This document shows, piece after piece, positions 1-22,714 of a stretch of 22,714 bases of DNA (position 1 is its first letter; every line of letters starts with the position of its first letter). The stretch covers positions 1 through 22,714 of the IMG/VR virus record IMGVR_UViG_3300021590_000027; one strand, 5' to 3'. The position numbers were made by a program, and so were the translations under genes. The notes below the pieces were generated by a model, which had not been told where the DNA came from, ran no database searches, and saw only the letters and a program-made list of their open reading frames with translations. The DNA is from a virus.

Positions 1-641
1 GCCAGTATAACTCCGTCCTAATAAATACTGAGATTGGGGACCCGAAAGCCTTTAATGTTTTCCTCCAACCCAGATTCGAGAAACAGTTTCACCAGCCTTT
101 CCTCCTGAACTGTCGTTCTCTTTACTCCTTAGCAAATGTCTTAGGTCTCAACGTTCAATTGATTACCAAAGGAGAAGAGGGAAAAGCAGGAAAGGTTGAG
201 AGCAATATTACCACTACTGAAAAGTTCCCGGTCTTAGAGTACATAAAACAGCATAAGTCCCAGCTTTTAGTCCTCGATTCTATTACTACTCCGATTAAAG
301 GCGCAATAGGTAGTGCGAGACAAAACTTTGGTGCAAGGGCTGATGTCATATCGAGAATTCTCGGTCAGCTATCTCTCATTTTGGATGAGACTAACGTGGC
401 TATTGTAATAGTAGCACATCAAAGTCAAGATAAAGCAAACAAATTCGATGAAGGAAGAATCTGGGGTGGAGACACTTTGGCTTATAATGCTAAATATATT
501 TTACAGCTTCGTACACCCCATTTCAAGGTCGAAACTGATTCTAAGACCTTATACAAACAAATTCGTAGAAGAAGGTATTTAGGGAAACTGGAAAGTAAAT
601 GGTTCCAGCTTCCCCTAAAGAAAGATTTTGGTTTTGTATAA
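1..641 (+). CDS. RadA/RecA-like recombinase ATPase, C-terminal part (5' end outside window)
   Basis: The reading frame is open from base 3 to the stop at 639-641, so the N-terminus and Walker A loop lie before the window. The visible part has the RecA-fold order: a VLINTE strand near the start (compare DTE in RadA), a Walker B strand LLVLDSIT around base 270, a helix with ARADVISRILGQL, and an L2-like segment IVIVAHQSQDK followed by WGGDTLAYNA, matching the RadA/RadB 'TNQV...GG..laH' region. Family members are ATP-dependent strand-exchange proteins or accessory paralogues acting in recombination-dependent replication and repair. The TNQ motif reads AHQ, so this is a divergent viral paralogue rather than a host-like RadA. 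It leads a cluster of replication genes. The superfamily call is secure; recombinase versus mediator cannot be decided from this fragment. Confidence 0.8.
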   Translation, partial: QYNSVLINTEIGDPKAFNVFLQPRFEKQFHQPFLLNCRSLYSLANVLGLNVQLITKGEEGKAGKVESNITTTEKFPVLEYIKQHKSQLLVLDSITTPIKGAIGSARQNFGARADVISRILGQLSLILDETNVAIVIVAHQSQDKANKFDEGRIWGGDTLAYNAKYILQLRTPHFKVETDSKTLYKQIRRRRYLGKLESKWFQLPLKKDFGFV

Positions 642-670
642 TTCGATTATCAAGCGATGGAGCAAGAAGA

Positions 671-1018
671 ATGAAGATTAACTTGGAGAAGATAAGTGCT
701 GCAATAGGCACAGTTATTACTTCTAAGAGGAACAAGAAGTCAGCCAAAGAGCTGAAGAATAAGATACTTCTAAAGATTCGGGAAGAGAAACAGAACGAAA
801 CCATATCAAGGGCTGCCTTGGTGATGGCACTTGAAGATTTGACCAAAGGCATGAACAAGGATGACTTAGATGATGCCATAGACCGTTTCTTAGAAGAGTT
901 AGTTGCCGAATTATTTGAGGATTTGGATATAGTAGATTTAGGAGATATGTTATCTCCTGATGCTCCCTCCCCAAGCATTAAAAACAATACTTCTGACGAT
1001 AATCCCATGTACCGGTAA
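671..1018 (+). CDS. Small acidic protein of unknown function
   Basis: 115 residues. I chose the ATG at 671 because a GGAG lies about 8 bases upstream. An in-frame ATG at 599 would overlap the upstream ATPase gene by 43 bases and has no clear ribosome site. The N-terminal third is basic (Lys/Arg-rich, residues about 1-45). The middle is predicted helical and strongly acidic, with DLDDAIDRFLEELVAELFED around residues 72-95, and the tail is polar and low in complexity. No family is recognised. It sits between the RadA-like gene and the ERCC4 nuclease with only 3 bases before the latter, so it is probably co-translated with them. A role in the recombination module is a guess from position only. 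Confidence 0.7.
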   Translation: MKINLEKISAAIGTVITSKRNKKSAKELKNKILLKIREEKQNETISRAALVMALEDLTKGMNKDDLDDAIDRFLEELVAELFEDLDIVDLGDMLSPDAPSPSIKNNTSDDNPMYR

Positions 1019-1021
1019 GTC

Positions 1022-1666
1022 ATGGAAAGAGAAGTTGTCATTGATACACGGGAACCCAAGCACGTGTATGAGATTGCAGTGAAGACTCTCAAGGATTATA
1101 CCGTAAAACGAGCTAAGTTAGAAGTTGGAGACATTCAATTCGAGGACATAATAGTAGAACGAAAGACACCCTCGGATTTTGTTACATCGGCAAGACGTTC
1201 AGACTTTTGGACAAACTTGTATGTAATGAAGACGAACTATAAGCATTCCTTCCTTCTTATAGACGGAGATGATTACTCTTGGCGAGAAGTGATTTCAAGA
1301 AGGGGCATCACAAATTCGATGATAGAGGGTGCAAAGGTTTCAGTTCTCATGATGGGAATTCCGATAATGGAATTTGCAAAATTAAGTAGTGCGTTCAAAC
1401 ATCTTGATGTGATGTTTCAGAAAAAGGTGAGTGTTAAACCTCCCCGAACAGCAGACCTCAAAATTTCAAAACAAAGTGCAAATCTACATTCTCTACGAGT
1501 AGCGTGTCTTATGTGTGTACCTCGAATTGGAAATGTCACTGCTGAGAAACTGCTTCAAGACCACAAAAAACTCATCAATGTAATAGAAGAATCTAAGAAC
1601 GTTAAGACTCCTGCAATGAAAAGAATAAATGATTTCTTCTTTGGTGAAGATAAAGATGTTGAATAA
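1022..1666 (+). CDS. ERCC4-type (XPF/Hef-like) structure-specific endonuclease with HhH domain
   Basis: 214 residues. The N-terminal half carries the XPF/MUS81/Hef nuclease signature: IDTRE at residues 7-11, VGD at 35-37 and ERKTPSD at 46-52 (canonical GDxnERKxxxD), then a basic patch SARRSDF and the strand SFLLIDGDD. The C-terminal part has a helix-hairpin-helix region, CVPRIGNVTAEKLLQDHKKL, as in the (HhH)2 dimerisation/DNA-binding domain of the family. No helicase domain is present, so this matches the short nuclease+HhH form rather than full-length Hef. Family members cut branched DNA such as flaps and stalled forks as dimers. All expected acidic and ERK catalytic residues are visible. 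It starts 3 bases after the preceding gene and overlaps the next by 11. A fork or recombination-intermediate processing role is inferred. Confidence 0.9.
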   Translation: MEREVVIDTREPKHVYEIAVKTLKDYTVKRAKLEVGDIQFEDIIVERKTPSDFVTSARRSDFWTNLYVMKTNYKHSFLLIDGDDYSWREVISRRGITNSMIEGAKVSVLMMGIPIMEFAKLSSAFKHLDVMFQKKVSVKPPRTADLKISKQSANLHSLRVACLMCVPRIGNVTAEKLLQDHKKLINVIEESKNVKTPAMKRINDFFFGEDKDVE

Positions 1667-2327
1667 AATTCGGGAAAGGATTAGTAAGATACTTACCTGT
1701 ATGCTACCAAGGACCAAAGTCTATTTTGAAGACTTTGAGACTTTGGCTCTATTGGCAGAGAAGAGCATGGACACTTTAAAACATTTAGGAGAAAAGGAAC
1801 ATCCCTCAACCACAAGTGTGAGAGCTAAAACTTTGGAAGTCCAAGCTGATTCGACCGTGCATGACGCAATCAGGTCTCTTCTTTACGACCATACAAGAGT
1901 GACCGAAGAAAAGGCAGACATTCGGAATTTTCTTCAAAATCTCGATGATGTTATAGACAACTTAGAAGCAGTTGTGTGGAGAATAGCTAACTTCGATTGT
2001 AATCCTCGTGCTCTCCGTCTTAGAGACTCTTTTATTCCTTATATCGAAAAAGCTGTGATTGATATTAGTTGTGCAGTGTCTCTTCTTCCAGATGTCATTC
2101 ACAATCAAAAACAACTTAATACTTTCATAGAGAGCATTAATCAATGTGAGGTTAGAGGTGACGAGTTATATAGAGGTTGGTTCATGTCTGTCACAAACGG
2201 AGTGTTTAAAAGCGAAGGTGAGAGGTTCTTCTTGTTAGATGTTCTTCAGAGGCTGGAAAATGTGTTAGACGCAGCGGAAGATGTTGCAGATAATCTTGAA
2301 ACTTTCCTTTTAAAAGGAGGAGTTTAA
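1656..2327 (+). CDS. DUF47/PhoU-like protein (putative phosphate transport regulator)
   Basis: 223 residues from the ATG at 1656, overlapping the nuclease gene by 11 bases. An earlier in-frame start at 1629 would overlap it further and is less likely. The all-helical sequence follows the DUF47 (UPF0111, PhoU-related) pattern: a first helix FEDFETLALLAEKSMDTL; an acidic ExxxD site at E61-D65; ADIRNFLQNLDDVIDNLE at about residues 87-104 (family: ReDI..L...LDDviD.iE); a second ExxxD at E165-D169; and a C-terminal VLDAAEDVADNLETFLLKG at about 203-221. Family members bind metal clusters through these acidic motifs and usually sit beside Pit-type phosphate transporters, whose activity they are thought to control. 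No transporter lies nearby, so a viral copy might act on the host's. The family call is from motif memory, not a search. Confidence 0.75.
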   Translation: MLNKIRERISKILTCMLPRTKVYFEDFETLALLAEKSMDTLKHLGEKEHPSTTSVRAKTLEVQADSTVHDAIRSLLYDHTRVTEEKADIRNFLQNLDDVIDNLEAVVWRIANFDCNPRALRLRDSFIPYIEKAVIDISCAVSLLPDVIHNQKQLNTFIESINQCEVRGDELYRGWFMSVTNGVFKSEGERFFLLDVLQRLENVLDAAEDVADNLETFLLKGGV

Positions 2328-2483
2328 ATGAAGCCGATGGAAGGTCAGACGATTGAAATGTACGGTGTTCGAGTTACAGTCTTTAGGAATGGAGATGTGT
2401 ATGTTTCAACTAAAGGTGACGTCACAATAGTAGATGCTCGTGCTGTAATTGCGAATAATAAGATTATGGAGGTTGGAAAATGA
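2328..2483 (+). CDS. Small hypothetical protein (51 aa)
   Basis: An ATG follows directly after the preceding stop, with a strong AAGGAGG about 7 bases upstream. The 51-residue product begins MKPMEGQTIEMYGVRVTVFR and continues with alternating hydrophobic residues (VYVSTKGDVTIVDAR), suggesting a small all-beta fold such as a mini-barrel. The stop overlaps the next start (ATGA). No family recognised. Support is the ribosome site, the gapless packing and the coupled overlap. Confidence 0.65.
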   Translation: MKPMEGQTIEMYGVRVTVFRNGDVYVSTKGDVTIVDARAVIANNKIMEVGK

Positions 2484-2641
2484 CTTATAGCACAGAACAT
2501 AGTCACGAATTAAGATACGAAAGTGGGTCCGTAACTATTGTCATATCAATATTAGAAAGAGGAGATTCAGAAGAAGAAAGAAAGAATGTACAGAATCTCA
2601 TAGAAAAACTCGATAAACTAATCAAGGAGTTCTTTGATTAA
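2480..2641 (+). CDS. Small hypothetical protein (53 aa)
   Basis: 53 residues, starting in an ATGA overlap with the preceding gene and with GGAGG about 7 bases upstream (within ATTATGGAGGTTGG). The N-terminal part is beta-like (SVTIVISILERG). The C-terminal half is a charged amphipathic helix (KNVQNLIEKLDKLIKEFF) that could mediate dimerisation. No family recognised. Position between the DUF47-like gene and the primase suggests an early-region accessory protein. Confidence 0.6.
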   Translation: MTYSTEHSHELRYESGSVTIVISILERGDSEEERKNVQNLIEKLDKLIKEFFD

Positions 2642-2659: not shown

Positions 2660-3520
2660 ATGAACTACGACATTTTCTACTATATTCCTAAAGGTTTTTA
2701 CCGAAGAATTGCCGTTGAAAGTCGAAAGCAGTTTCCAGTTCATTCTTCAAGAGAAATCAAAAAACGATTGATGACTCGAGCTCCTCTTTATGCAAGCATT
2801 AGCGTCTTTCAAGAAAGCAAAGCCTTTCCCCTCTACTTCTTTTTTGATTTTGATTGTGAAAAACACATAGCCGAAGGAGAAATTGCTAAACTCCAAGATT
2901 ATTGTAAACGACACAGCTATTCTTTCACTGTTGCGGAACCTAAACGTGGTTATCACTTCTATATTCATCTCTCACCTACCGAAATAGACGCAAACGCATT
3001 CCGATGTATATCAGACTACATCATCGAAACAGTGGGAATTGAACACTATGATGATATTACAGACGGGGTCCTCAACGGCATTGCCCGTCTCCCAGGAAGC
3101 TATTATCCAGAACTTAATCGAAGAGTTAGGATAGTCAAACAAAGCTTAGCTAAGTTCATGAGTCCTTTTGAGTTATTGGATGGCAATGAGTTACCAACTC
3201 AGATTTTTCATTCGCTGCCAGACGATATAGACTTGGAATACTACCGTCCTTGCATTGATTACTTTATCCAAGAAAGTCACCCATCTCAGTTCATAAGGTT
3301 TGGATGGGCAGCTCTAAGAATAGCACAAGGCAAAAGTAACGAAGAAATGATTAATGAAGCAAGGCGATATAACTGGGAAGACTGGGATGAGGAAATGACA
3401 GAGTATCAGATAAATCAGATTAGGAGCAAACGATATAGAGTTCCGTCTTGTGGGACTATACGGAAGAAGGGGTATTGTATTCCCCAATTATGTAAATGGA
3501 GGAAACATAAATGTCATTAG
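2660..3520 (+). CDS. Archaeo-eukaryotic primase (AEP/PriS-like) with C-terminal Cys cluster
   Basis: 286 residues. The AEP catalytic core is visible in order: motif I FFFDFDCE with the DxD pair D63/D65; motif II GYHFYIHL with H99 (family: s.GfHvYi); and motif III-like VLNGIARLPGSYYPELNRRV, with the Arg/Pro-Gly-Ser of archaeal and viral primases. These residues bind metal and nucleotide for primer synthesis. A helical middle region follows, with W..WDEE residues, and the extreme C-terminus has C264, C273, C278 and C285 plus a His, a likely zinc or iron-sulfur site. No helicase domain is fused. The ribosome site is weak. Together with PolB at 5003 it gives a self-supplied replisome core. A PrimPol activity is possible but not shown by sequence. 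Confidence 0.82.
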   Translation: MNYDIFYYIPKGFYRRIAVESRKQFPVHSSREIKKRLMTRAPLYASISVFQESKAFPLYFFFDFDCEKHIAEGEIAKLQDYCKRHSYSFTVAEPKRGYHFYIHLSPTEIDANAFRCISDYIIETVGIEHYDDITDGVLNGIARLPGSYYPELNRRVRIVKQSLAKFMSPFELLDGNELPTQIFHSLPDDIDLEYYRPCIDYFIQESHPSQFIRFGWAALRIAQGKSNEEMINEARRYNWEDWDEEMTEYQINQIRSKRYRVPSCGTIRKKGYCIPQLCKWRKHKCH

Positions 3521-4295: not shown

Positions 4296-5006
4296 ATGAA
4301 TGACAATGATTGGCATAAGCTACAAGAGGATCTCATAAAGAGCAAGTATCATTATTTTCACACAGATCGAGGAGTGTTACTCCTTGGGGATTGCATCAAT
4401 ATCCTAAAAGACTTACCAGATAAGTCTGCCGATTTAATCCTCACGGATCCTCCTTACGCATTAGGAAAAGAGTATGATGTTTACGAGGATACTGAAGAAA
4501 ATCTCAAATCTCTTATAGAAGAATTCATGCCACAGGCTCTACGAGTAAGTAAGGCTATGCTACTTACCTGTGGTCTCACTAATATTTCTCTTTATCCTCC
4601 TCCACGCTGGATTTTAGCTTGGGTTTATAAGACGACAAACTCAAGAGGTAAATGGGGATTTGCTCAGTGGCAGCCAATCCTTGCGTATGGCGTAGACCCA
4701 TACTTGAGAGCGGGACTTGGAGCGAGAAGTGACGTCATAGAAGCAACAGGATTGGATAATCAAACTTATGATCACCCCTGTCCTAAACCCATCAAGTTTT
4801 GGGAAAGATTGTTGTTACGCGGAAGTCCTAAAGAAGGGGAAATTATTCTTGATCCATTTGCAGGTTCAGGAGTGACTGCAGTAGCCTGCGAAAAACATAA
4901 TCGTAGATGGATATGCATTGAGATTTCTGAGCGTTATTGTGAAGTAATTCAAGAAAGAGTATTAGGTCACGATAAATACCAAAAGAGTTTGGAGGAATTT
5001 TTATGA
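4296..5006 (+). CDS. DNA adenine-N6 or cytosine-N4 methyltransferase, beta-class order
   Basis: 236 residues. Motif IV DPPY is at residues 51-54, after GDCINILKDLPDKSADLI. The SAM-binding motif DPFAGSG lies near the C-terminus (about 186-192), followed by RRWICIEISERYCE (motifs II/III type). Catalytic motif before SAM motif is the beta-class arrangement. DPPY is typical of N6-adenine methylation but occurs in some N4-cytosine enzymes. HPCPKP just before the SAM motif is also typical. The target-recognition region is short (about 100 residues). No restriction endonuclease lies next to it, so it is an orphan enzyme, as often found in viruses, where it can shield DNA from host restriction or mark replication state. 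It overlaps the polymerase start by 4 bases. Confidence 0.9.
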   Translation: MNDNDWHKLQEDLIKSKYHYFHTDRGVLLLGDCINILKDLPDKSADLILTDPPYALGKEYDVYEDTEENLKSLIEEFMPQALRVSKAMLLTCGLTNISLYPPPRWILAWVYKTTNSRGKWGFAQWQPILAYGVDPYLRAGLGARSDVIEATGLDNQTYDHPCPKPIKFWERLLLRGSPKEGEIILDPFAGSGVTAVACEKHNRRWICIEISERYCEVIQERVLGHDKYQKSLEEFL

Positions 5007-7024
5007 TGGAACTTGTGAATGCTTCTCTTATTGGCTCAAGAAATTCGAGACCAACCGTCAAGCTTAAATTTAGAGAAGGTTGGAATGTCACGTACTCTGT
5101 AAGAAAGGGAGAGTATCCTTATTTCTATATCAAACCTGAAGAGGAAATTCTCTTCCCAATTATTAAACGAGAAAGTGGATTCGTGTCTTATACCGGAGAG
5201 CCTTTGGACAAAATCTCATTCAAATCAATAGAAGATCTCAAAAGAGGAAAGAGGAATGTGGACTTCAGTGCAGAAGCAGATATTCCATACTTGACACGCT
5301 ATCTCGTAGATAGAGGCTTGACGTACGGTCTTAATAGAAGGATACTTTATTTTGATATTGAAGTAGAGAGAGACAATGGTTCTCTCGACACAGAAAATGC
5401 TCCTCTTCCGGTTACTGTGATTGACGCTTACGATAGTTTCACAAAGAAGCACTATCCTTTTGTGTTAGAGGATTATGCAATAGAGGGAGTGAAGGCTTTT
5501 GTGTTTAAGAATGACGAACAGCTCATAAAATCCTTCTTATCCTTTTGTGAAAGATTAGATCCGGACCTGATTGTTGGATGGAACTCAAGTAATTACGATC
5601 TTCCTTACCTCTTTAATCGTTCAAGGAATAAGAAGATGTTTCGAGATTATCACGACGAACTCACCATAGGAGAAAGTCAGCCGCTTGACTTAATGCGAGC
5701 GTATAGAGAATTTGGAGAGCGAGGAGGAAGATACTTCTTAGACCATGTGGCTTTCCTCATTTTAGGAAGACGGAAGGATAAGTCGCTTCCTGAACTTCTT
5801 CATTGTATAGAAGACGTCACTCTCACTAAAGAAATAGATGAAGCACTCAAGCTGACTCAATTAGTTTTCTCTTTCCAAAATCTCGTTCCTCTTAATACCA
5901 TAGATATAATGAATAGAAGTTCGATTATCGAAGCCTACCTCCTAAAGAAGTATCACAATAAGTATGTTCTTCCGAATAAAAGACACGCATCACATACAAA
6001 GTATAAGGGAGCACTCGTTAGAGATCCACAGAAGGGTTTACATAGAGATGTCACTGTCTTAGATTTGGTCAGTCTGTATCCTTCGATTGTAATGCACTTT
6101 AACATCTCTCCTGACAGAGACATCAGGAATCCAGGGATACTCACGGAGACAATCAAAGAAATATTTGAACGGAGGCTCGAATACAAGAAGCTATACAAGG
6201 AAAGAGGCGACACTCAGAGTCAAATATGGAATGTGTCCTATAAGTTCCTTCTAAACGCGTGCGTTGGGATGCTGGGATACGGAAAGTCCAGATTCTACAA
6301 TAGAGATTTAGCAGCAGAAGTCACAGCTTATGAACGTAAAATCCTAACCTTCATTTGGGAGTACGTGGAAAACAAAGGCATTCCTATACTTGCAGGGGAC
6401 ACGGATGCACTTATGATTACTCATCCTCATCCTGAAGAAATAATGAATGAAATTAATGATGAACTTCACTCAAAGTGGGGTCCTGAGTTTAACTTGGATG
6501 TAGATAAAAAGTTTAGGGTCCTCTTCTTGTATAATAAGAAGAAGAACTATTTCGGGATTACAGACGAAGGTAAGCTGAAGATAACGGGAACAGTAGTAAA
6601 CAGAACGTCTTGTCCTCTGTATATCAGGAACAAGCTTATGACGGCATTCGAGTTAATCTTAAATGGAAAATGGGATGAACTTAAAGAAATCAAATCGCAG
6701 ATTAGAACTGAAATAAGAGAACAGGACGTAATGGATGTAGCAGAATGGGTAAGATTGTCTTCAACTTCACCCAAGGTTGAAACTGCTCATCTCAAGGCAG
6801 CGAAGAATAGACTTCGGTTGTATCGCATTCCTTTCCACTCGGGTGAAAAGTTACCAATTGTTCCTACAAAAGTGGCATCAATAGGAAACTTAGCCATCCA
6901 TGAGAACATAACAGATGACCTTCCCGAAATAGATTATGATGCCATTTTGGTGAAATGGTTTTATAATCCTCTGAAAGAAATAGAGGACACCCTGTCTCAA
7001 ACAAACCTTAATGGATTTATATAG
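5003..7024 (+). CDS. Family B DNA polymerase with 3'-5' exonuclease domain
   Basis: 673 residues, with GGAGG at 4991-4995 before the ATG. The exonuclease motifs are Exo I FDIE (D118, E120), Exo II WNSSNYD (N194, D199) and Exo III HCIEDVTLT (D271). The polymerase motifs are motif A DLVSLYPS (D354), motif B KFLLNACVG (K414, N418) and motif C AGDTDA (D466, D468), followed by KKKNYFG (about 512-518), the KKxY motif. All catalytic acids are present, so both activities are expected. It is shorter than typical archaeal PolB (about 770-800), mainly at the N-terminus and thumb. Some usual residues differ: Exo III Tyr is His, the motif B Tyr of NSxYG is Val, and motif C lacks its leading Tyr. No TPR insertions of protein-primed polymerases are evident, consistent with the primase upstream. 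Confidence 0.95.
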   Translation: MMELVNASLIGSRNSRPTVKLKFREGWNVTYSVRKGEYPYFYIKPEEEILFPIIKRESGFVSYTGEPLDKISFKSIEDLKRGKRNVDFSAEADIPYLTRYLVDRGLTYGLNRRILYFDIEVERDNGSLDTENAPLPVTVIDAYDSFTKKHYPFVLEDYAIEGVKAFVFKNDEQLIKSFLSFCERLDPDLIVGWNSSNYDLPYLFNRSRNKKMFRDYHDELTIGESQPLDLMRAYREFGERGGRYFLDHVAFLILGRRKDKSLPELLHCIEDVTLTKEIDEALKLTQLVFSFQNLVPLNTIDIMNRSSIIEAYLLKKYHNKYVLPNKRHASHTKYKGALVRDPQKGLHRDVTVLDLVSLYPSIVMHFNISPDRDIRNPGILTETIKEIFERRLEYKKLYKERGDTQSQIWNVSYKFLLNACVGMLGYGKSRFYNRDLAAEVTAYERKILTFIWEYVENKGIPILAGDTDALMITHPHPEEIMNEINDELHSKWGPEFNLDVDKKFRVLFLYNKKKNYFGITDEGKLKITGTVVNRTSCPLYIRNKLMTAFELILNGKWDELKEIKSQIRTEIREQDVMDVAEWVRLSSTSPKVETAHLKAAKNRLRLYRIPFHSGEKLPIVPTKVASIGNLAIHENITDDLPEIDYDAILVKWFYNPLKEIEDTLSQTNLNGFI

Positions 7025-7033
7025 GAGGAGAAA

Positions 7034-7669
7034 ATGAAAGTTGTACTGAGTGGAGATTGGCATATTGGTCAGGGAGAAATCTCTCCTGAGATGATAGCAG
7101 AGATAGCTAAGAGATATTGGAACGGAAAGAAAGTGATTTTGATGGGAGACCTCATTGATTGTGGAATCGACAGGGGAATGCAATTTGATAACGAAATCCA
7201 ACCACAGTCTCAACTTCGATGGGTCAAGATAATTACAGACAAATTGGACGTCGTAGGTTACTGTCTTGGAAATCACGAATACAGAGTCTTCAACGAGGTT
7301 GGTCTCAATGTCTACGAGGAGTATTTAGGAAAGCCAACTCACAAGGTTGAAATAGATGGAGTGGAATTCTATTTTGCTCACGGAAGAAGCGCTGCAATGG
7401 ATATATTCACAGAACATCGAAGACTCCTTCAGTATATTGACGCGGATGTTATAGCGTTAGGACACAATCATACGCTCGCTAAACTCGATGTGCTACGTGG
7501 AGATAAGAGAATCACACTTCTGCGAACAGGTTCTTTAGCACGGGGACTTCGATATGCGATTGAAATGTCTCTTCCGCCTACCATTAATGGGTGGACGGAG
7601 TATGACACTCGGAAGCGAGCAGCAAAACTAATGATGATTGACAAGAATGGAGAAGTTCATGAAATATAA
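7034..7669 (+). CDS. Calcineurin-like metallophosphoesterase
   Basis: 211 residues, with GGAGG at 7024-7028 (overlapping the polymerase stop) and good spacing to the ATG. All metallophosphoesterase motifs are present: GDWH (D8, H10), GDLID (D39), GNHE (N80, H81), AHG (H116) and GHNH (H144, H146). These bind a two-metal centre that hydrolyses phosphodi- or monoesters. The protein is a bare catalytic domain without the capping domain of Mre11 or the OB domain of the PolD small subunit, so neither should be assumed. Direct adjacency to PolB suggests a nucleic-acid or nucleotide substrate, but the substrate cannot be read from the sequence. Confidence 0.88.
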   Translation: MKVVLSGDWHIGQGEISPEMIAEIAKRYWNGKKVILMGDLIDCGIDRGMQFDNEIQPQSQLRWVKIITDKLDVVGYCLGNHEYRVFNEVGLNVYEEYLGKPTHKVEIDGVEFYFAHGRSAAMDIFTEHRRLLQYIDADVIALGHNHTLAKLDVLRGDKRITLLRTGSLARGLRYAIEMSLPPTINGWTEYDTRKRAAKLMMIDKNGEVHEI

Positions 7670-9328: not shown

Positions 9329-9340
9329 AGGAGGATGATT

Positions 9341-11047
9341 ATGAACATAGAAAAATTCCTAACAGGTGGAAACGTGGTGGACGTGAATGCGAACTATTCT
9401 CCTGATATAGCAAACGTTAGGAAACAATTAGCCTCTGGAGCTGAGTTAGTCTTCAATAAAGAACTCATATCGGAATGGTTTGATAGAGGACGAGAAATAT
9501 TAGGACGACATGGTAAGGAAATTTACATTCATGACCTTTCAAAGAACATCTTAATGCCATATTGTTATAGCATAAGTGTTGAGCCTATTCTTGCAGAGGG
9601 TTTAACATATTATCCTCACTTTAAGAGTAAGCCACCAAAGAGACTGGATTCCTTCATAGCACAGTTGATTGAGTTCACGTCATACGTAGCCAACAGGACA
9701 AGGGGAGCGATAGGCATTCCTGATCTCATATTAGGATTAACTTATTTCGTAAAGAAGGAGGGTGCAATTTCTCTTAATGAGTACAGACTCACAGACTATC
9801 GTTTCAGGAATGAACTTCAGCGATTATTCTACTCCTTCAATCAACACCTTCGGCAAGGCGCAGAGTCTCTTTATACCAACATATCGTTCTTTGATTCCTA
9901 TTATCTGGCTCATCTATTCAATAAGAATTCTTGGGGACTCGACATAGATGAATTATCCGCTGTTCAGTCAGCAGTCATGAGATGGCATACAAGGGAAGTT
10001 GAGACTCAAATGCTGAGATTCCCAGTTATCACTGCAGCTCTCAAGGTTAAAAACAAAAAGATTCAGGACGAAGAATTCCTTGAATTTGCAGTCAAACAAA
10101 ACCTTCATCACACAATGTACAACTTCTTAGTCTTACCACACCTTGATGCCATCGCCTCTTGTTGTCGATTGATCTCCTCGAAAAAGCCGTTCTTCAACTC
10201 CTATGGTTCTGGTGGTGTTCAAATAGGTTCGCATCAAGTTGTGAGTCTCAATCTTCCAGGAATCTATCTAAGATACCCAGATACGTTTGAAGAGCGTATA
10301 AAAGAGAATCTTCAGCTTGCTAAGGAGTTTCTCGATTGGCACAGAAAACTTCTTGAAGAATATCAGTATCTTGATGCCACGTTTGAGTTAGGGCTTCGAT
10401 CATTGCGAAGGATGTATTCAACGATTGGTATCATAGGTCTTTGGGACCTCAAGCAATTGATAGGCTTGACTTATTCTTGGGATGATTTGGAAAACCTCCT
10501 AAAGGAGATTCGTCGTGTAATCGATAGTTGGGAAGGATTTTACAATTGTGAGTTAGTTCCAGCAGAGTCGGCTGCAATCTCTCTCTATGACACAGACAAA
10601 GCATACGCAGAAAAACATCAGAAGGACAAAAGCAAATACTATGAAAACGGAAGAATGTATTCCAATCAGATTGTATCTCCTTGGGTGGAAATGTCCCTTG
10701 GAGAACGCGTAGAGATAACAGGAAGATTTTCAAAGTTCTTTGATGGTGGACAAATGATGTTCGTAAATGTTCCTTCAGTGTTCCAGAATGTACATCAGAT
10801 GAGGAAAATAATAGAAGCAATAGTCAAGAAAGAAGTACCATACTTTGCATTTGATAATTACCTGTCCCGTTGTCTTAAACATAATCATCTGACGTTAGGA
10901 GACGTAGACGCCTGTCCTATCTGTGGTAGTAAGGATATTCTCAAGTTTAGACGGATAGTTGGCTACTTTGTGGAACAATCTAATATGCACGAAAGACGAC
11001 TGAGAGACTTGCCTTATAGAAAAGTTGACAAGACGGATTGGATATGA
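9341..11047 (+). CDS. nrdD: Anaerobic (class III) ribonucleoside-triphosphate reductase
   Basis: 568 residues; the ATG at 9341 has GGAGG 6 bases upstream (the ATG at 9335 abuts it). It reduces ribonucleotides to deoxyribonucleotides using a glycyl radical in oxygen-free cells. Visible: IYIHDLSKNILMPYC with C75; ASCCRLIS with C274/C275 followed by GSHQVVSLNLP; the PAESAA element (407-412); and a C-terminal metal site CLKH (511-514) with CPIC (525-528). The glycyl-radical loop RRIVGYF has Gly541. The N-terminal ATP-cone (about 90 residues) of E. coli-type NrdD is absent, so dATP feedback may be lost. The adjoining activase gene excludes a pyruvate formate-lyase type. It implies an anaerobic host and would supply dNTPs for PolB. 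Confidence 0.92.
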   Translation: MNIEKFLTGGNVVDVNANYSPDIANVRKQLASGAELVFNKELISEWFDRGREILGRHGKEIYIHDLSKNILMPYCYSISVEPILAEGLTYYPHFKSKPPKRLDSFIAQLIEFTSYVANRTRGAIGIPDLILGLTYFVKKEGAISLNEYRLTDYRFRNELQRLFYSFNQHLRQGAESLYTNISFFDSYYLAHLFNKNSWGLDIDELSAVQSAVMRWHTREVETQMLRFPVITAALKVKNKKIQDEEFLEFAVKQNLHHTMYNFLVLPHLDAIASCCRLISSKKPFFNSYGSGGVQIGSHQVVSLNLPGIYLRYPDTFEERIKENLQLAKEFLDWHRKLLEEYQYLDATFELGLRSLRRMYSTIGIIGLWDLKQLIGLTYSWDDLENLLKEIRRVIDSWEGFYNCELVPAESAAISLYDTDKAYAEKHQKDKSKYYENGRMYSNQIVSPWVEMSLGERVEITGRFSKFFDGGQMMFVNVPSVFQNVHQMRKIIEAIVKKEVPYFAFDNYLSRCLKHNHLTLGDVDACPICGSKDILKFRRIVGYFVEQSNMHERRLRDLPYRKVDKTDWI

Positions 11048-11790
11048 GAGAAATTAACTTTGGAGGAACTGTACTCTCGACGATTGACTGGAGAGGATTG
11101 AACTCTCTTGTCTTATTCTTGAGAGGCTGTCCTCTCCGCTGTCTTTATTGTCAGAATTTCAAATTGTTTCAAGAACCTAACTATGTTCCCTTAGAGGACG
11201 TGAAGTCTCAAACAGAAAAGGAATTAGATTTTGTTGATGCCTTAGTCTTTTCTGGTGGAGAGCCAACTCTTCACGAAGAATTCATAGAAGAAATTGGAAC
11301 GTGGATGCACAATGCAAATAAGTTAGTAGGCATTCAGACAAATGGCTACTTCGCCTCAAGCATCAAAAGAGTTTTGAAATCTGGAGTTATAGATAAAGTC
11401 TTCTTGGATGTCAAAGCTCCTCTTAGAAATAACCCGTTGTGGTTCAAGGTAACTCAAGTTAGCAATGTAGAAAAATCTGTACGGAGTACACTTTCTTCAT
11501 GTAAAAATTCAAACACTCCTCTTCAAGTTCAGACCACCGTCTTCAAGAGGTTGGTGGGTGAAGAGGAAGTCCTTCAAATAGCAGAAGAACTCGATAACCT
11601 CAAATTCAATGGGGAATACGTGATTCAACAAGGACTATGGGATAACGTTCCCCGTTATGGACGCAAACTCATAAAGAAGGAAGACGAATTTACTCCTGAA
11701 GAATTAAGAATAATTGGGAAGAAGATTAAGGAACAATTCTCATTTCCCGTATATATTAGAACAAGAGAGGGTGAAGAACTTATAGAATGA
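11044..11790 (+). CDS. nrdG: Anaerobic ribonucleotide reductase activating protein (radical SAM)
   Basis: 248 residues from the ATG at 11044, which overlaps the nrdD stop (ATGA); the in-frame TTG at 11038 is less likely. The radical-SAM motif CPLRCLYC (C29, C33, C36) binds a [4Fe-4S] cluster and S-adenosylmethionine, and is followed by VFSGGEPTL (the GGE motif), VGIQTNGY and KVFLDVKAP. The enzyme abstracts hydrogen from the NrdD glycine to make the active radical. It resembles the longer archaeal/thermophile activase form rather than the roughly 155-residue E. coli NrdG. Coupling to nrdD strongly supports the assignment. The stop overlaps the next start by 4 bases. Confidence 0.92.
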   Translation: MREINFGGTVLSTIDWRGLNSLVLFLRGCPLRCLYCQNFKLFQEPNYVPLEDVKSQTEKELDFVDALVFSGGEPTLHEEFIEEIGTWMHNANKLVGIQTNGYFASSIKRVLKSGVIDKVFLDVKAPLRNNPLWFKVTQVSNVEKSVRSTLSSCKNSNTPLQVQTTVFKRLVGEEEVLQIAEELDNLKFNGEYVIQQGLWDNVPRYGRKLIKKEDEFTPEELRIIGKKIKEQFSFPVYIRTREGEELIE

Positions 11791-13173: not shown

Positions 13174-13764
13174 ATGTTATCAGATGCTGAAATTCTTGAG
13201 GAAATGAAGAGGGGAAACATAGTGATCGAACCATTCAGGGAAGAACAGCTTAATCCCAACAGTTATGACGTAAGACTTGGTGAATACTACGCAGTCGAGT
13301 TCCCTTACTCACAAGTACTCGATCCTTACAATAAGTATCTTGTAGAAAAACATTGGAAAATTAGGAGGGCTACTGATCGCATAATCATTCGTCCTGGAGA
13401 GACCATCCTCGCTCATACTCAGGAAGTCATAGGAGGAAGGGGAAACATAGCGAGCAAAATGAATGCAAGAAGCTCACTCGGAAGACTCGGTATATCGGTA
13501 TGCAAATGTGCTGGATTTGGGGATGTAGGTTTCATAAACAAATGGACTATGGAAATCACTAATCACTTACCCTCAACATCGGTAGTCCTTTACGTAGGGA
13601 TGCGGGTTGCTCAAATCTCCTTCTTTAGGACAGGCATAGTCCTTCACGAGTACAAAGGCAAGTACGGTCAAGAAGAGTGGAAACCTGAAGACATGCTCCC
13701 TAAGATGTGGAAGGACTACGAACTTCATGATGATAAATATAAAGGTTTGATTAGGAGGGATTGA
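13174..13764 (+). CDS. dcd: dCTP deaminase (Dcd/dUTPase family)
   Basis: 196 residues. The N-terminus MLSDAEILEEMKRGNIVIEP with NPNSYDVRLG is diagnostic for Dcd. The active site shows ARSSLGRLGI (R99, S100, S101), then GFGDVGF and WTMEITN with catalytic Glu127, and GMRVAQISFF. It deaminates dCTP to dUTP; some archaeal forms also hydrolyse dUTP to dUMP, the thymidylate precursor. Which form this is cannot be settled by eye. It complements the viral NrdD/NrdG in controlling pyrimidine dNTPs. GAGG lies about 6 bases before the ATG, and the next gene starts 1 base after its stop. Confidence 0.92.
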   Translation: MLSDAEILEEMKRGNIVIEPFREEQLNPNSYDVRLGEYYAVEFPYSQVLDPYNKYLVEKHWKIRRATDRIIIRPGETILAHTQEVIGGRGNIASKMNARSSLGRLGISVCKCAGFGDVGFINKWTMEITNHLPSTSVVLYVGMRVAQISFFRTGIVLHEYKGKYGQEEWKPEDMLPKMWKDYELHDDKYKGLIRRD

Positions 13765-16703: not shown

Positions 16704-18166
16704 TGTTCTATCCCATCTGGTCCGAATAGATAATAGTATATTGCCTTAGTAAATGGCTTCCAATTCCTTCCCCAAATTAAATGTGTTACTAATCCTCCAT
16801 CTCCATTAATTCCGAGAGTGAAGTTAGTAGCCGATGTTCGTTCAGGAGCAAATTCTCCCGCCCACTGAATTGCCTGAGAGCGAGAATCATAAAATCCAAG
16901 GGGACAACGGTCAAAAGTGCGAGCGCTGTACCAACAAGAAGAGTCACCTAAAATTTGAGAAGCTGTGATAGTACGAGCGATGAGAAAGGAATGTTGTCCT
17001 CCCAAAGGTTTCACATTACTACAATAAGTTGGACAGTCTTTCCAGTATGTGTCGTACGTGTAGCAATAATAATCACAATCTGTGCTTGTTCCACCCAAGC
17101 AAGTTCTGTAATTCGTTTTGGCTAAGAACAAAAGGGGAGCGCCTGAAGGATTACATCCTCCAACGGCGATATCACCGTTAGCATTAGTAGAAATACTTGT
17201 GGCTCCACCATATCTCTTACCGAGCGGGAAGGTGTGTTCTTCTCCTAATCCGTATATCGTTTTTTCGTTTATAATACTGAGTTCATCTTTGTGAACTATC
17301 TTAATTCTGGTGGGACAGGGATTTTTTCCAGACGGGTATGGACATTTATATATTGTGTACTGGTGATACGGATCTTGCCCTTCTTTATAATACTTCCAAT
17401 GACTGACTCCTTTAAAACACTCTGGGAAATAATAACCTTGCCACGGGTGAGAACTGTAATCATAACATCTTAAATGAGATACAGTTAAGAACCAATAATT
17501 GCCGTCTTTATCTTTGGTAACGTCAGGACTTTCTCCCCACAGCGGGATCATCGCAACCATAGAGCCATCAGTTCCATCGAGGAACTTAGCCATCATCCCT
17601 CCAGCAATCACTAATACGTTCTTTTTTCCGTCATAATAAAAGTTAGACACTCCTCCTATGTTTCTGCTCCATTTAAACTCAAAAGTCTTTCGATCGTATG
17701 CAAATATACTCATACCGTTGGAGAGATAGAATAAATCATTTCCAAGCACAAGCCGAAAACAACGACCAACGTTTCCAAACCCCTTCAATTCTCCTTTCGT
17801 ACAACCCCAAGACGAAAAAGGGTATAGAAAAACACCCCATCTTCCTCCAATCCAAATCGTTCCTTCTTCGTCTAACCACACATCTTTGCTATCGGATCCA
17901 AACCAAAAGTCGTTGCTAACATATCGGAATACTCGTCCCCATCCTACTATAGCTTCTGTCGTTAACATGGTATATCCGGGATAAGGAGTGTGGGTAGATA
18001 CTACTGAAGCGATCCAAGGATAAGCGGCGTAAGGTACGTTATCATCTTGATGAATTTCGCCATTACCCTCTCTCTTTCCACCGATTATTATGCTTTCTAC
18101 TGTGGTTTCATCTGCAACCATTCGACTTCCTGTATTGTAAAGAAGAACATTACTGCCTGTCTTCAT
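16700..18166 (-). CDS. Beta-propeller-like structural protein, paralogue 1 of 3, Cys-rich
   Basis: 488 residues, the longest of the three. The start overlaps the hub gene stop (ATGA), with AAAGGGG about 10 bases upstream. The N-terminus TGSNVLLYNTGSRMV matches the sister proteins. Blade-like elements: VWLDEEGTIWIGGRWGVFLY, VTKDKDGNYWFLTVSHLRCY and ISTNANGDIAVGG. It has a Cys-rich stretch in the last third (CLGGTSTDCDYYCYTY, then DCPTYC, SSCW and DRCP), suggesting disulfides or a metal site in an exposed insertion. The C-terminus AIYYYLFGPDGIEQ resembles paralogue 3. Probably attached to or assembled on the tail hub encoded upstream. Confidence 0.8.
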   Translation of the reverse strand: MKTGSNVLLYNTGSRMVADETTVESIIIGGKREGNGEIHQDDNVPYAAYPWIASVVSTHTPYPGYTMLTTEAIVGWGRVFRYVSNDFWFGSDSKDVWLDEEGTIWIGGRWGVFLYPFSSWGCTKGELKGFGNVGRCFRLVLGNDLFYLSNGMSIFAYDRKTFEFKWSRNIGGVSNFYYDGKKNVLVIAGGMMAKFLDGTDGSMVAMIPLWGESPDVTKDKDGNYWFLTVSHLRCYDYSSHPWQGYYFPECFKGVSHWKYYKEGQDPYHQYTIYKCPYPSGKNPCPTRIKIVHKDELSIINEKTIYGLGEEHTFPLGKRYGGATSISTNANGDIAVGGCNPSGAPLLFLAKTNYRTCLGGTSTDCDYYCYTYDTYWKDCPTYCSNVKPLGGQHSFLIARTITASQILGDSSCWYSARTFDRCPLGFYDSRSQAIQWAGEFAPERTSATNFTLGINGDGGLVTHLIWGRNWKPFTKAIYYYLFGPDGIEQ

Positions 18167-21100
18167 AATAACGGTATCCCCTTTACTACTTGCCCAGTCC
18201 TATAAATTTTGATGTCAACTGTCTGCTCTTCCGCGTTATAATTTACTATTTCTCCTATCTCTATCCAAGGAATCTCTCCCAACATCGGTGGTCTCGGATT
18301 TGAAGGACAAGGATGACCTGGAAGTATAGGACCTTTCTCAATTTTCTTTGCCTCTCTATGCATTATATTTTCAATTTCGTTTAGTTTAGGACTACCCGGA
18401 TGGACTAAGTCCGTATCCCTACATTCAAGAGTTGTAAGTAGCTTCCCGCCCGTTTGTTCACCCATTTCATAAGTGATTTTCATGATTCTGTAATATCCAT
18501 CCTTATCAGTGGAAGGGGGAAGTCCTTTTACACCATCGAAGTCTATGTACATACCAGTATGTATAGGGAGTGGGGTCGTTTGTCCCAATTCATGTATTGT
18601 TTTCTTTGTAAGGACAAGATCGAAAAAACGAGCCTCGAATGTCACATCAGGAAGTCGAAGTTCTCCAAGCCTCTTTTCGGCAAACTGTTGTAAATCCGAA
18701 AGATCGTCTATATCCACGTTAGATATAGCTATATACTCTTCAACTGGTTTAGCATTATTTTCTCGTTGTTCAACCGCAACAACCGGGAAATCCTGACAAG
18801 TTACTGCTAATCTATTTATCTTCGTATCCTCAGAGGTTTGTTCTTCTCTTACTCTTACACTTATCAACTTGCTCAAAAAATTACCGTCTTCTGGATTGTT
18901 ATTAATCTTCAATACAAAACTTCGAGCGAGAGGGTTTCCAACTTTCACGAATGGGTCGTAACCCCAGAGTTGAGAGGGATATTCAAAACTATGACCACGA
19001 AAGTAGAGAGTCCGTCCTTCTCCCCACATATCCAACTTTTCTTCATTTTCACATGTTTCCCGTGAAGCAAAAACCGCCAACCTCCTCCCTCTATCAACTT
19101 CAGAAGATTGGAAGGAAGGAGGGCAGTTATCGTCCCAATAAATACAATAAAACAAATAGTCACAAACATTGCAAAGTTGCATTATTCCATCCCACTTGGT
19201 AGTACCATAAAAGAAGTTAAATCCAGATCTTCCAGCGTTCGCTGCATATTTTTCTCCCCAGTCTGGCATGTCTTCTATATACATCGGGAACAAACCAGTA
19301 GTTTCCTTCCACCAAGCGCCCACAGCGAGATACCACCAGAACCACCAACACGAGGCTCCTTTATACGAACAGGTTGATATTCCATGCGTGTATTTCTCTC
19401 TCCATTTTTCGCATACACATTTAAATACATCTGGACACTCGTCGTCACAACACATTTCCTTATCCCAACTACCGAGCCACATGTATACTACATCTTGGAG
19501 TCTGAAGACAGGATCGAGGGTATAGAGACAACTTTCTTCATCCCAGAAACAGTTTTGTTTGGTAAGATACCATTCGTTGGAGACAGCTCGAACTATTGTT
19601 TCTTCTCTGCCTTTCACTAATTCTCTATCCATTGAAAGAACAGGACCTTTAAACAAAGTAACAAGCGGATAATCAGGATTTCCAGTGTCATACACAATAT
19701 GAATAAGATCTCCAGTAAGGAATTTGGGTAGCCCTTTAAATCTTACCTCTGCAGTATCAGGAGCTGCCCATTCTTGTGTAACCTTATAGCTTATGAGATC
19801 GGGAACGTTACCTCCATTTATCAACCAGTGAGTGTAAAGTGCACCTATTGGTTCTGGCTCTAAAAGTAAAGACGGATTTAAGTTGATAGAGAATAATGAA
19901 GAAATATTAACTGGCTGAAGAAGAGATTTCCATACCCAAAACTTCTTTAAAATGTTAGGTACTTCCATCGAAACATTTGCATACATTAGATATTCTAAGA
20001 CGGGTACTGAAAAACCGTTAATATCAGGATTTACCTCTAACTCAAAAGATAAATACTCACCCACGGAACTAACACGAGAAAGTAGAGGAAGGAGCGAAAA
20101 CGTTTCTCCAATCAAGTAAGAAGAACTTAGCTTGAAATCCGTTTTACACGTCGAATAACAATAAGAGTCGTGAATTATTACATATTGAGGTTCTCCCAAT
20201 GTAACGACGGGTTCTGGAGTGACATACTTAGCTACTATCAAATCATCTAAACACCCTTCGTATCCAAATTCCTTATCGTCGGGAGATGGAGCTTGATTTA
20301 AAATGATAAACTTTTTTAAATCCGAAGGATTCACGTCTGTAATTCTACCCTCTCGTTCTCCTCCTGGTTCTACGTATCCAATTTGTTCTGTAAAGTCACC
20401 ATTCCATATTTCCCCGTGTATTGTGCTTCCCTCTTTCCATATTCTAACGCCGTGCCAGCAGTCGTCGGAGAACATTTCTTGAAGTTTTTCATTGTCTCCA
20501 CCTGGTGCATACATTTTGTCTTTGTGATCTCCATCGTCGTCTTTCACACTTAAGTAGTAAGCGTAGTCATTATAGAAGGGTTGAAAAGCTATAAGATTTG
20601 TCGTGTTAGGAACTTCATCAGATACACCTATGTACGATATAGTAAAGGGATTCAAGAAATTCTTAATTTTGCATTTAAACTGAATGAAAAAGGAGTCTGG
20701 TATGTCGAGAGCATTTTTCGTGCTAAGATAAGCTTGATACTCATAACTATCGAAAGTACCAAAATTGAGTAGACCATTCTTTATATTCATCTTAGAAGGA
20801 TGACTGGATATCCACTGTGCATCGTCCATGAAGTCATCCCCGAGTATGAAAGTGGTTTTAATATTACTTTCGGATGTGGCTAATGGGTTATCATAAAACA
20901 TAAATAAACAGATATTAGAACCTGTGGGTATTTCATCCACCTTAACCCATATTCGGGATGTTCCATTATACTCCCATCTTTCAATCCAATATGGTAAGAG
21001 TTTGAGAGAAGGATTAGTAAATCTTAGGTCTCCTCCATCCAATCTACAATTTTCGTAGTCGAAATTCTCTGGTATAAGAGTCAAGCAAATTTGATAATCA

Positions 21101-22714
21101 GTAAGAGTTTGACCTGTATTGTTCTCAATTGTGATGTTTCTTTTACGTTTCCAAGAACCCGGAATTAAAAGAAAATTATTACTCCTCAAGTAAGCAGGAA
21201 CATAGCTTGAGACAGGCAGAGTACCATTCTGAGAGCAACTAAAGGATAATTCTGAAAGTGGGAAAGATTCAAGCCTTCCACTAACCATTATTGTATTATT
21301 CTTTTTGAAGTCTTCAAGAGGAAATAAACAATCTAATTGAAAGTCACGATAAACTCGGAATATTAAAGAATCCTTGCCTATTAACGTGGCTGTTGGAAAT
21401 GGCTCGATGTATTTACGAATGAATATGCTATCAAGTCTTATTCCCACTTTTGTATTTTGATCTTTGGAATCTGTGAATTTAATTTCCACGTCTCCAGAAT
21501 CAGTGAAGGAGGAAGTTTGAACGAAAACGCAGTCCTCATATTCAGAGTCAGCTACGTCTGACCATTTTTCTGTTCCATTAACATATATCGCGTGCGTAGG
21601 AGAAACTCCACTATTCGTTTCTTTCTGCCAACAATTTAATACTTTCTCTCCCAAAGGAAGTGAGATAGTCTGTTTGACAGTAACATGAGGATTCTCACAA
21701 TTCTCCTTGAAGCCAGCCTTAAGTTCATAATCACCGTGACAAGCGTCAGCTACTCCATAATATGGCTCACCTGAGTCTGAAGGAGAAAATTCAAAAGTCC
21801 AACTCGAAACATCACTTCTTTCAAATCCATCATAAAATAGGAAGACTTCCCTTGGTTGTTCAGGACGTACATATTCCCATTCGGAGTGACCACAAACTAA
21901 GATAGCGCACACATGAAAACCTGGAGGTATCTCAGGTATTTTTATCCAAACCTTAGAATTGCCATTGTAAGTCCACTCTTCCCACCAGAATGGTAATTCT
22001 TGAGAATAGTCTTCAGTGAAAAAATTGATATCACTACCATATTTATTACAGAGAGAATAGTTAAAGTTGGAAGTGTTAATTTCAACTGGTATTTGAAAAT
22101 TATATAAGGTATTTCCGGTATCATTTTCTATCATAATTGGGAATCGAAAAGAATAAGGATAAGGAGGAGGTGGATAAAGAGAACATCTAAATTCTGTTTC
22201 GAGGCTTGTGTCTATCAAAAATTCAGAAGGAAGTGCAGAAACGAATAAAGAAGGCGATAGTGAAGGAGAAATAGTTTCTTGGAAGGATATAGGAAATTTT
22301 CCCCCTTGTCTTCCATCAAACAATAAACTTATTTCTAATTCAAAGTTAATTGGATATATAGCTTTATCTATTTCCCCCAATTCAACCACTGGTTCTGGCT
22401 CAACGTACTTACGGAGTCGCAGGTTGTCTATTCGAGCATCATTATAAACTTTGTAACCATCTTCGTGCCTAACAAAAATTCTAACCTTTTTTATGTTTGA
22501 ATTAGCTCCACCAACACTTCTTGATATCCATTGTCCCGGAGAGTACAAATCGGCTAAGTTCGTCCAAGTATGATCCTCTCTTGGACTGTACTTGAAAGTG
22601 TTCCATTTTTGATATATGCTTCCATCTGCTTGATAATCTTGAACTTTATTAGAAAATCCTTCAGCATAAGTATGAATATGATCAGTGTAATTGTCACTAT
22701 CATTCGCGTCACCT
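18163..22714 (-). CDS. Giant virion protein: repeated DUF2341/ConA-like units fused to a tail-hub-like domain (N-terminus outside window)
   Basis: At least 1516 residues, open to the window edge; no start is visible, and a TTG-initiated reading from 22548 is unnecessary. From the N-terminus there are three ConA-like units, each ending in a (I/L)D....(R/A)KY(V/I)xPxP...LG motif (about 22385-22430, 21395-21430, 20205-20240). Units 2 and 3 begin with a DUF2341 domain: IMIENDTGNTLYNFQIPVEI at about 22150-21880 and ITIENNTGQTLTDYQICLTL at about 21165-20865. From about 19860 on it resembles phage tail-hub (gp27/GPD-like) proteins: TLFKGPVLSMDREL, then LQQFAEKRLGEL, YYRIMKITYEM and LLTTLECRDTD. An insertion at 19051-19557 is very rich in Cys and Trp. 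The end resembles the start of an OB-fold (GEIVNYNAEEQTVDIKIYRT). Probably the tail-tip hub with host-binding lectin modules. Confidence 0.85.
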   Translation of the reverse strand, partial: GDANDSDNYTDHIHTYAEGFSNKVQDYQADGSIYQKWNTFKYSPREDHTWTNLADLYSPGQWISRSVGGANSNIKKVRIFVRHEDGYKVYNDARIDNLRLRKYVEPEPVVELGEIDKAIYPINFELEISLLFDGRQGGKFPISFQETISPSLSPSLFVSALPSEFLIDTSLETEFRCSLYPPPPYPYSFRFPIMIENDTGNTLYNFQIPVEINTSNFNYSLCNKYGSDINFFTEDYSQELPFWWEEWTYNGNSKVWIKIPEIPPGFHVCAILVCGHSEWEYVRPEQPREVFLFYDGFERSDVSSWTFEFSPSDSGEPYYGVADACHGDYELKAGFKENCENPHVTVKQTISLPLGEKVLNCWQKETNSGVSPTHAIYVNGTEKWSDVADSEYEDCVFVQTSSFTDSGDVEIKFTDSKDQNTKVGIRLDSIFIRKYIEPFPTATLIGKDSLIFRVYRDFQLDCLFPLEDFKKNNTIMVSGRLESFPLSELSFSCSQNGTLPVSSYVPAYLRSNNFLLIPGSWKRKRNITIENNTGQTLTDYQICLTLIPENFDYENCRLDGGDLRFTNPSLKLLPYWIERWEYNGTSRIWVKVDEIPTGSNICLFMFYDNPLATSESNIKTTFILGDDFMDDAQWISSHPSKMNIKNGLLNFGTFDSYEYQAYLSTKNALDIPDSFFIQFKCKIKNFLNPFTISYIGVSDEVPNTTNLIAFQPFYNDYAYYLSVKDDDGDHKDKMYAPGGDNEKLQEMFSDDCWHGVRIWKEGSTIHGEIWNGDFTEQIGYVEPGGEREGRITDVNPSDLKKFIILNQAPSPDDKEFGYEGCLDDLIVAKYVTPEPVVTLGEPQYVIIHDSYCYSTCKTDFKLSSSYLIGETFSLLPLLSRVSSVGEYLSFELEVNPDINGFSVPVLEYLMYANVSMEVPNILKKFWVWKSLLQPVNISSLFSINLNPSLLLEPEPIGALYTHWLINGGNVPDLISYKVTQEWAAPDTAEVRFKGLPKFLTGDLIHIVYDTGNPDYPLVTLFKGPVLSMDRELVKGREETIVRAVSNEWYLTKQNCFWDEESCLYTLDPVFRLQDVVYMWLGSWDKEMCCDDECPDVFKCVCEKWREKYTHGISTCSYKGASCWWFWWYLAVGAWWKETTGLFPMYIEDMPDWGEKYAANAGRSGFNFFYGTTKWDGIMQLCNVCDYLFYCIYWDDNCPPSFQSSEVDRGRRLAVFASRETCENEEKLDMWGEGRTLYFRGHSFEYPSQLWGYDPFVKVGNPLARSFVLKINNNPEDGNFLSKLISVRVREEQTSEDTKINRLAVTCQDFPVVAVEQRENNAKPVEEYIAISNVDIDDLSDLQQFAEKRLGELRLPDVTFEARFFDLVLTKKTIHELGQTTPLPIHTGMYIDFDGVKGLPPSTDKDGYYRIMKITYEMGEQTGGKLLTTLECRDTDLVHPGSPKLNEIENIMHREAKKIEKGPILPGHPCPSNPRPPMLGEIPWIEIGEIVNYNAEEQTVDIKIYRTGQVVKGIPLL

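Follow-up and report, generated by a model that had tools for sequence, protein, structure and literature searches.

The stretch of DNA analyzed here (the window) is a virus record of 22.7 kb, in which a gene for a DUF47 protein is embedded among genes for DNA replication and nucleotide supply (Table 1). The longest open frame at this locus begins at position 1629; ATG 1656 was chosen as start, which agrees with the N-terminus of the relatives (MLKRI...). Upstream of the DUF47 gene are a Rad51-like recombinase fragment, a 139-aa protein and an ERCC4-type nuclease, with which it overlaps by 11 bases. Downstream, two small ORFs are followed by a probable primase, a methyltransferase, a family B DNA polymerase and a phosphoesterase, and further on by a ClpP-like head maturation protease, the anaerobic ribonucleoside-triphosphate reductase NrdD, its activase and a dCTP deaminase. 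The replication setting described in a first-pass annotation of this DNA is thereby borne out, polymerase, primase, reductase, activase and deaminase all being present. Its placement of the gene between nuclease and primase holds for the overlap with the nuclease and for the order, but the two small ORFs intervene before the primase.

Table 1. Genes and other features of the window with their positions, strand and the evidence for their assignment.
Feature	Position	Strand	Evidence
139-aa protein	599..1018	+	no family match
ERCC4-type nuclease, directly 5' of DUF47	1022..1666	+	PF02732 6.5e-13
DUF47 / PitR-type (PhoU-like) protein, 223 aa	1656..2327	+	PF01865, structure model and PDB matches, invariant sites
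Small ORF, 51 aa, gapless after DUF47	2328..2483	+	sequence; without Pfam match
Small ORF, 53 aa, between DUF47 and primase	2480..2641	+	sequence; without Pfam match
Probable DNA primase, PriL-like C-terminal part	2660..3520	+	NCBIfam PriL models to 4e-8, below cut-off
Family B DNA polymerase	5003..7024	+	PF00136 1.8e-31
Anaerobic ribonucleoside-triphosphate reductase NrdD (nucleotide supply)	9335..11047	+	PF13597 5.9e-70
NrdD-activating radical SAM protein (NrdG2)	11038..11790	+	TIGR02495 1.7e-39, above cut-off
dCTP deaminase	13174..13764	+	TIGR02274 2.1e-31, above cut-off
Three adjoining proteins, 368-488 aa	14389..18166	-	beta-propeller-like repeats by eye; without Pfam match
1461-aa protein with DUF2341 domains	18163..22548	-	DUF2341 4.9e-29

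The end of the DUF47 gene contains AAAGGAGGAG, a candidate ribosome-binding site for the small ORF that follows. That the conserved C-terminal KGG motif of the protein is kept purely as such a site fails as a general reading, since different codons (ggt, ggc, gga) are used for the glycines and several viruses have no close 3' gene; it may apply in the window itself. The 139-aa protein occupies the same place in related viruses and evolves as fast as DUF47 (43-60% identity). On the opposite strand, the three beta-propeller-like proteins are possible host-recognition or tail-fibre proteins, and the DUF2341 protein might belong to the virion surface or the tail.

Family assignment, fold and putative metal sites

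The gene product belongs to the DUF47 family. Profile PF01865 (DUF47/PhoU_div) matches residues 19-219 with an E-value of 1.6e-10 and 41.1 bits, well above the curated cut-off of 24.4 bits, whereas PF01895, the PhoU domain, has no match in the protein. The narrower equivalog model TIGR00153 gives 34 bits, below its cut-off of 104.3 bits; as it is also missed by three Pit-linked proteins from host-type genomes (35-46 bits), this model does not cover the ANME-1-type branch of DUF47. PHROGs holds no matching DUF47 family (best value 0.036). The one significant relative of solved structure found with phmmer is 3l39, a PhoU-like protein from Bacteroides (7.2e-6). Together with the structural matches described below, this relative and the PF01865 match confirm the DUF47/PhoU-like identity that had been read from the sequence.

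An AlphaFold2 model of the viral protein reached a pLDDT of 87.7 and a pTM of 0.84, with one of the five models confident and the other four poorer. It is composed of six long helices that form two three-helix bundles, the architecture expected from the first reading. The first 15 structures listed by Foldseek are all DUF47 or PhoU structures. In VIA-align, 3l39 reached a Z-score of 26.1 over 202 aligned residues, followed by the DUF47 structures 2olt (20.7) and 2iiu (20.3) and by the PhoU structures 1t72, 4q25 and 1sum (18.5-20); unrelated helical proteins come next with a Z-score of about 16. Among the viral proteins in BFVD, no structural relative with E below 0.001 was found. The paired ExxxD-type sites noticed before are four E/D-xxx-D sites (E61-D65, D97-D101, E165-D169 and D205-D209), which in the model occupy helices 2 and 3 of both bundles. 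None of them varies among the nine distinct viral copies or among the 40 host-type copies; the putative metal-site motifs are intact.

Related viruses and cellular relatives

Eight IMG/VR contigs share the ERCC4 gene, and all of them carry DUF47 above the PF01865 cut-off; a further scan found DUF47 on the same eight contigs and on one more (L046); gene order was compared in the eight. The order ERCC4, DUF47, primase is common to all eight, so that the neighbourhood is conserved in related viruses. The three closest contigs have just this order, with DUF47 approximately 79% identical; in the other five, whose DUF47 is 50-53% identical, ERCC4 is followed first by a methyltransferase-like gene and then by DUF47. 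Up to approximately 540 bases separate DUF47 from the primase in the eight contigs. Where dS is measurable, dN/dS of the viral DUF47 copies is 0.05-0.15, hence the gene is under purifying selection. Across the clade it diverges faster (51-53% identity) than ERCC4 (72-75%), the primase (71-73%) or the methyltransferase (82%). A Pit gene (PF01384, PHO4) was found in none of the nine records, i.e., the window and its eight relatives, several of which are fragments, in agreement with the claim of a transporter-less copy; PhoU (PF01895) was not found in four related viral records.

The window probably derives from a head-tailed virus of methane-oxidising archaea (ANME-1). In the published study (PMC9894754), CRISPR spacers link to ANME-1 two complete ekchuahviruses, GBV302 (80.6 kb) and GBV301 (71.8 kb). 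As a 2026 preprint (PMC12934983) counts two viruses of Thermococcales as members of the same family, this host is only probable for the window.

In a scan of species genomes, the closest cellular relatives of the viral protein came mostly from Methanophagales (ANME-1) and similar archaea (33-41% identity), followed by distant bacteria (24-28%). Among 393 genomes of the same phylum, approximately 45 contain a match with 36-43% identity, and the rest, with few exceptions, stay at or below 28%. All 12 host-type genomes checked have their sole DUF47 match next to their sole Pit gene, and Pit lies directly 3' of DUF47 in 39 of 40 host-type loci, mostly at most 15 bases away. In bacteria, PitA is present in 97.8% of the genomes that have PitR (PMC13170248), and DUF47 is thus indeed the usual companion of Pit, as had been stated. 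The adjoining Pit gene that marks a PitR-type protein is found with the cellular relatives and was not found with DUF47 of the window or its eight viral relatives.

In a tree with archaeal DUF47 outgroups only, the nine viral DUF47 proteins form one clade (support 99/99), and a split with 100/100 support separates the host-type group, including the viral copies, from the other DUF47 of archaea; in an earlier tree with far bacterial outgroups the viral clade had a support of 61/100. A topology test with the cellular host-type sequences grouped without the viruses resulted in a p-AU of 0.23. Viral DUF47 groups with the host-type set, inside or beside the cellular ANME-1 radiation, and it clearly descends from a Pit partner.

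Several ANME-1-type genomes (L090-L093, L095-L097) encode a second, Pit-less chromosomal clade of DUF47, with three copies in one genome (G248). This paralogue mostly lies directly 5' of a PHP-domain gene, and its TRVTEEK loop is changed to SR(E/D)GEEK; in one case (L095) it shares a contig with a Pit locus and with Pst-like genes. In eight alignment columns that are fixed except for a change in the paralogue, the majority of viral copies retain the Pit-linked state at six and have the paralogue's residue at none, which hints weakly that the viral protein may still see a Pit-linked partner. Of 93 invariant positions of Pit-linked proteins, 43 are kept in the viral copies versus 55 in the paralogue; since the viral copies have lost more than half of these near-invariant positions, the partner may also have changed.

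A contig of 11.1 kb from an ANME-1-type genome (L111, G319:C89) represents a second head-tailed virus. It encodes a tape measure protein (phrog_28, 5.7e-51), NrdD, DNA methyltransferases, a phosphoribosyltransferase and its own Pit-less DUF47 (6443-7102, + strand), in which the DHTRVTEEK and KGG motifs are kept. There, DUF47 adjoins a glycosyltransferase-like gene. In the tree it joins the viral clade at 98/94, a placement to be taken with caution because of long branches. Scans of viral contigs with its DUF47 and tape measure proteins detected no relatives.

A possible action on host phosphate control

Among the relatives, PitR of Staphylococcus aureus has been studied best; experiments on archaeal DUF47 were not found in the literature. 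S. aureus PitR restrains the phosphate-starvation response, its loss derepresses that response, and upon loss of both PitR and PhoU phosphate over-accumulates (PMC13170248). The suggestion of the first-pass annotation that the virus opens or holds open phosphate uptake is not supported by these data. With PitR as the model, the default expectation for an extra functional copy is restraint or a reset, not opening; the latter would require a dominant-negative effect, i.e., a viral copy blocking the restraining host protein. That the gene may serve viral DNA synthesis is sensible given the nucleotide-supply genes around it, while the opening of uptake as the means is without support.

As family members act with Pit, and in view of the PitR data, we propose host Pit as the route by which the viral protein influences phosphate control in the host, which we regard as reasonably probable. 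The Pit accessory protein of an archaeal host (DUF47, PitR type) would have been captured by the virus and would then have diverged fast. During infection the viral protein might dock on the host's own Pit, or on a signalling partner served by the host protein, and replace the host DUF47 or work alongside it. Phosphate uptake or the starvation response would thereby be uncoupled from host control at the time of viral dNTP and DNA production; uptake could rise or fall, or the starvation response could be silenced. That the host Pit itself is the site of action we infer from descent and conserved residues. The wider proposal, that head-tailed viruses of ANME-1 took a Pit regulator without its transporter and made it a dedicated effector seizing the host importer, is tentative.

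Two versions of an action through Pit differ in the direction of the effect. The viral copy could stand in for the host protein or act as a clamp, doing its job while host regulation collapses and thus keeping the starvation response off or limiting a toxic influx of phosphate. This agrees with the intact motifs, the retained Pit-linked residues and the known sign of PitR, while the fast divergence is more in keeping with an altered behaviour than with a preserved one; taken singly, this version is rather unlikely. The version close to the original idea, in which the viral copy displaces host DUF47 from Pit but cannot itself restrain, so that uptake stays on, is unlikely. It is consistent with the restraining role of PitR and the over-accumulation upon loss of PitR and PhoU (PMC13170248), with viral copies that keep the core but have changed at many of the positions that do not vary in the host protein, and with nucleotide-synthesis genes in the same virus; a pure decoy, however, could have lost the four putative metal sites, all of which are kept under purifying selection.

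Outside phosphate control, the protein could be a helical scaffold repurposed for viral replication, e.g., as a partner of the nuclease or primase. Its fixed place in the replication block and the 11-base overlap with ERCC4 in the window would fit, yet a methyltransferase-like gene separates it from ERCC4 in five of the eight contigs, the distance to the primase can be as large as stated above, its neighbour in the second virus is a glycosyltransferase-like gene, and all four putative metal sites of DUF47 are preserved, which makes such a role quite improbable. A host gene carried along by chance or a mis-joined contig is ruled out by the same gene in the same place in eight related contigs; dN/dS well under 1 also speaks against inert cargo, and host contamination does not apply as host copies are only 36-43% identical. 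We consider an origin of this kind extremely improbable. If action through the host Pit is true, a host importer would be controlled by a stolen accessory subunit, and viral DNA synthesis would be tied to phosphate control in methane-oxidising archaea. A lone conserved regulator that can be traced to a regulator-transporter gene pair of the host offers a specific, testable target, the host Pit.

Relation to known systems

Discussion of phosphate genes carried by viruses mostly concerns pstS or phoH. PhoU (PF01895) is the partner of the PstSCAB transporter. The viral protein resembles PhoU in overall fold, as the Z-scores of 18.5-20 indicate; in contrast, its sequence and closest structure are DUF47, and its host relative is paired with Pit and not with Pst. 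With the DUF47/PitR proteins, such as S. aureus PitR and Methanophagales DUF47, it shares the family match, the two three-helix bundles and the four E/D-xxx-D sites, but it differs from them in having no transporter gene, in forming a long-branch clade and in its location among replication genes.

A 'PhoU' was named among the auxiliary genes of ANME-1 viruses (Laso-Perez et al., 2023; PMC9894754), and this auxiliary metabolic gene very likely belongs to the same family as DUF47 of the window. The main text of that paper only lists the name; it does not separate DUF47 from PhoU and contains neither the neighbourhood nor the link to host Pit. Relative to that text, the identity as DUF47 and Pit partner, the conservation in the replication block, the host-type origin and the second viral lineage are new. 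DUF47 is also borne by the uncultured 735-kb phage LR756501 (L110), where DUF47 and a Pit-like gene are located near each other. This resembles the present case in that DUF47 is carried by a virus; it differs in that the phage protein is only 25% identical to that of the window and has close by a Pit-like gene, which the window lacks.
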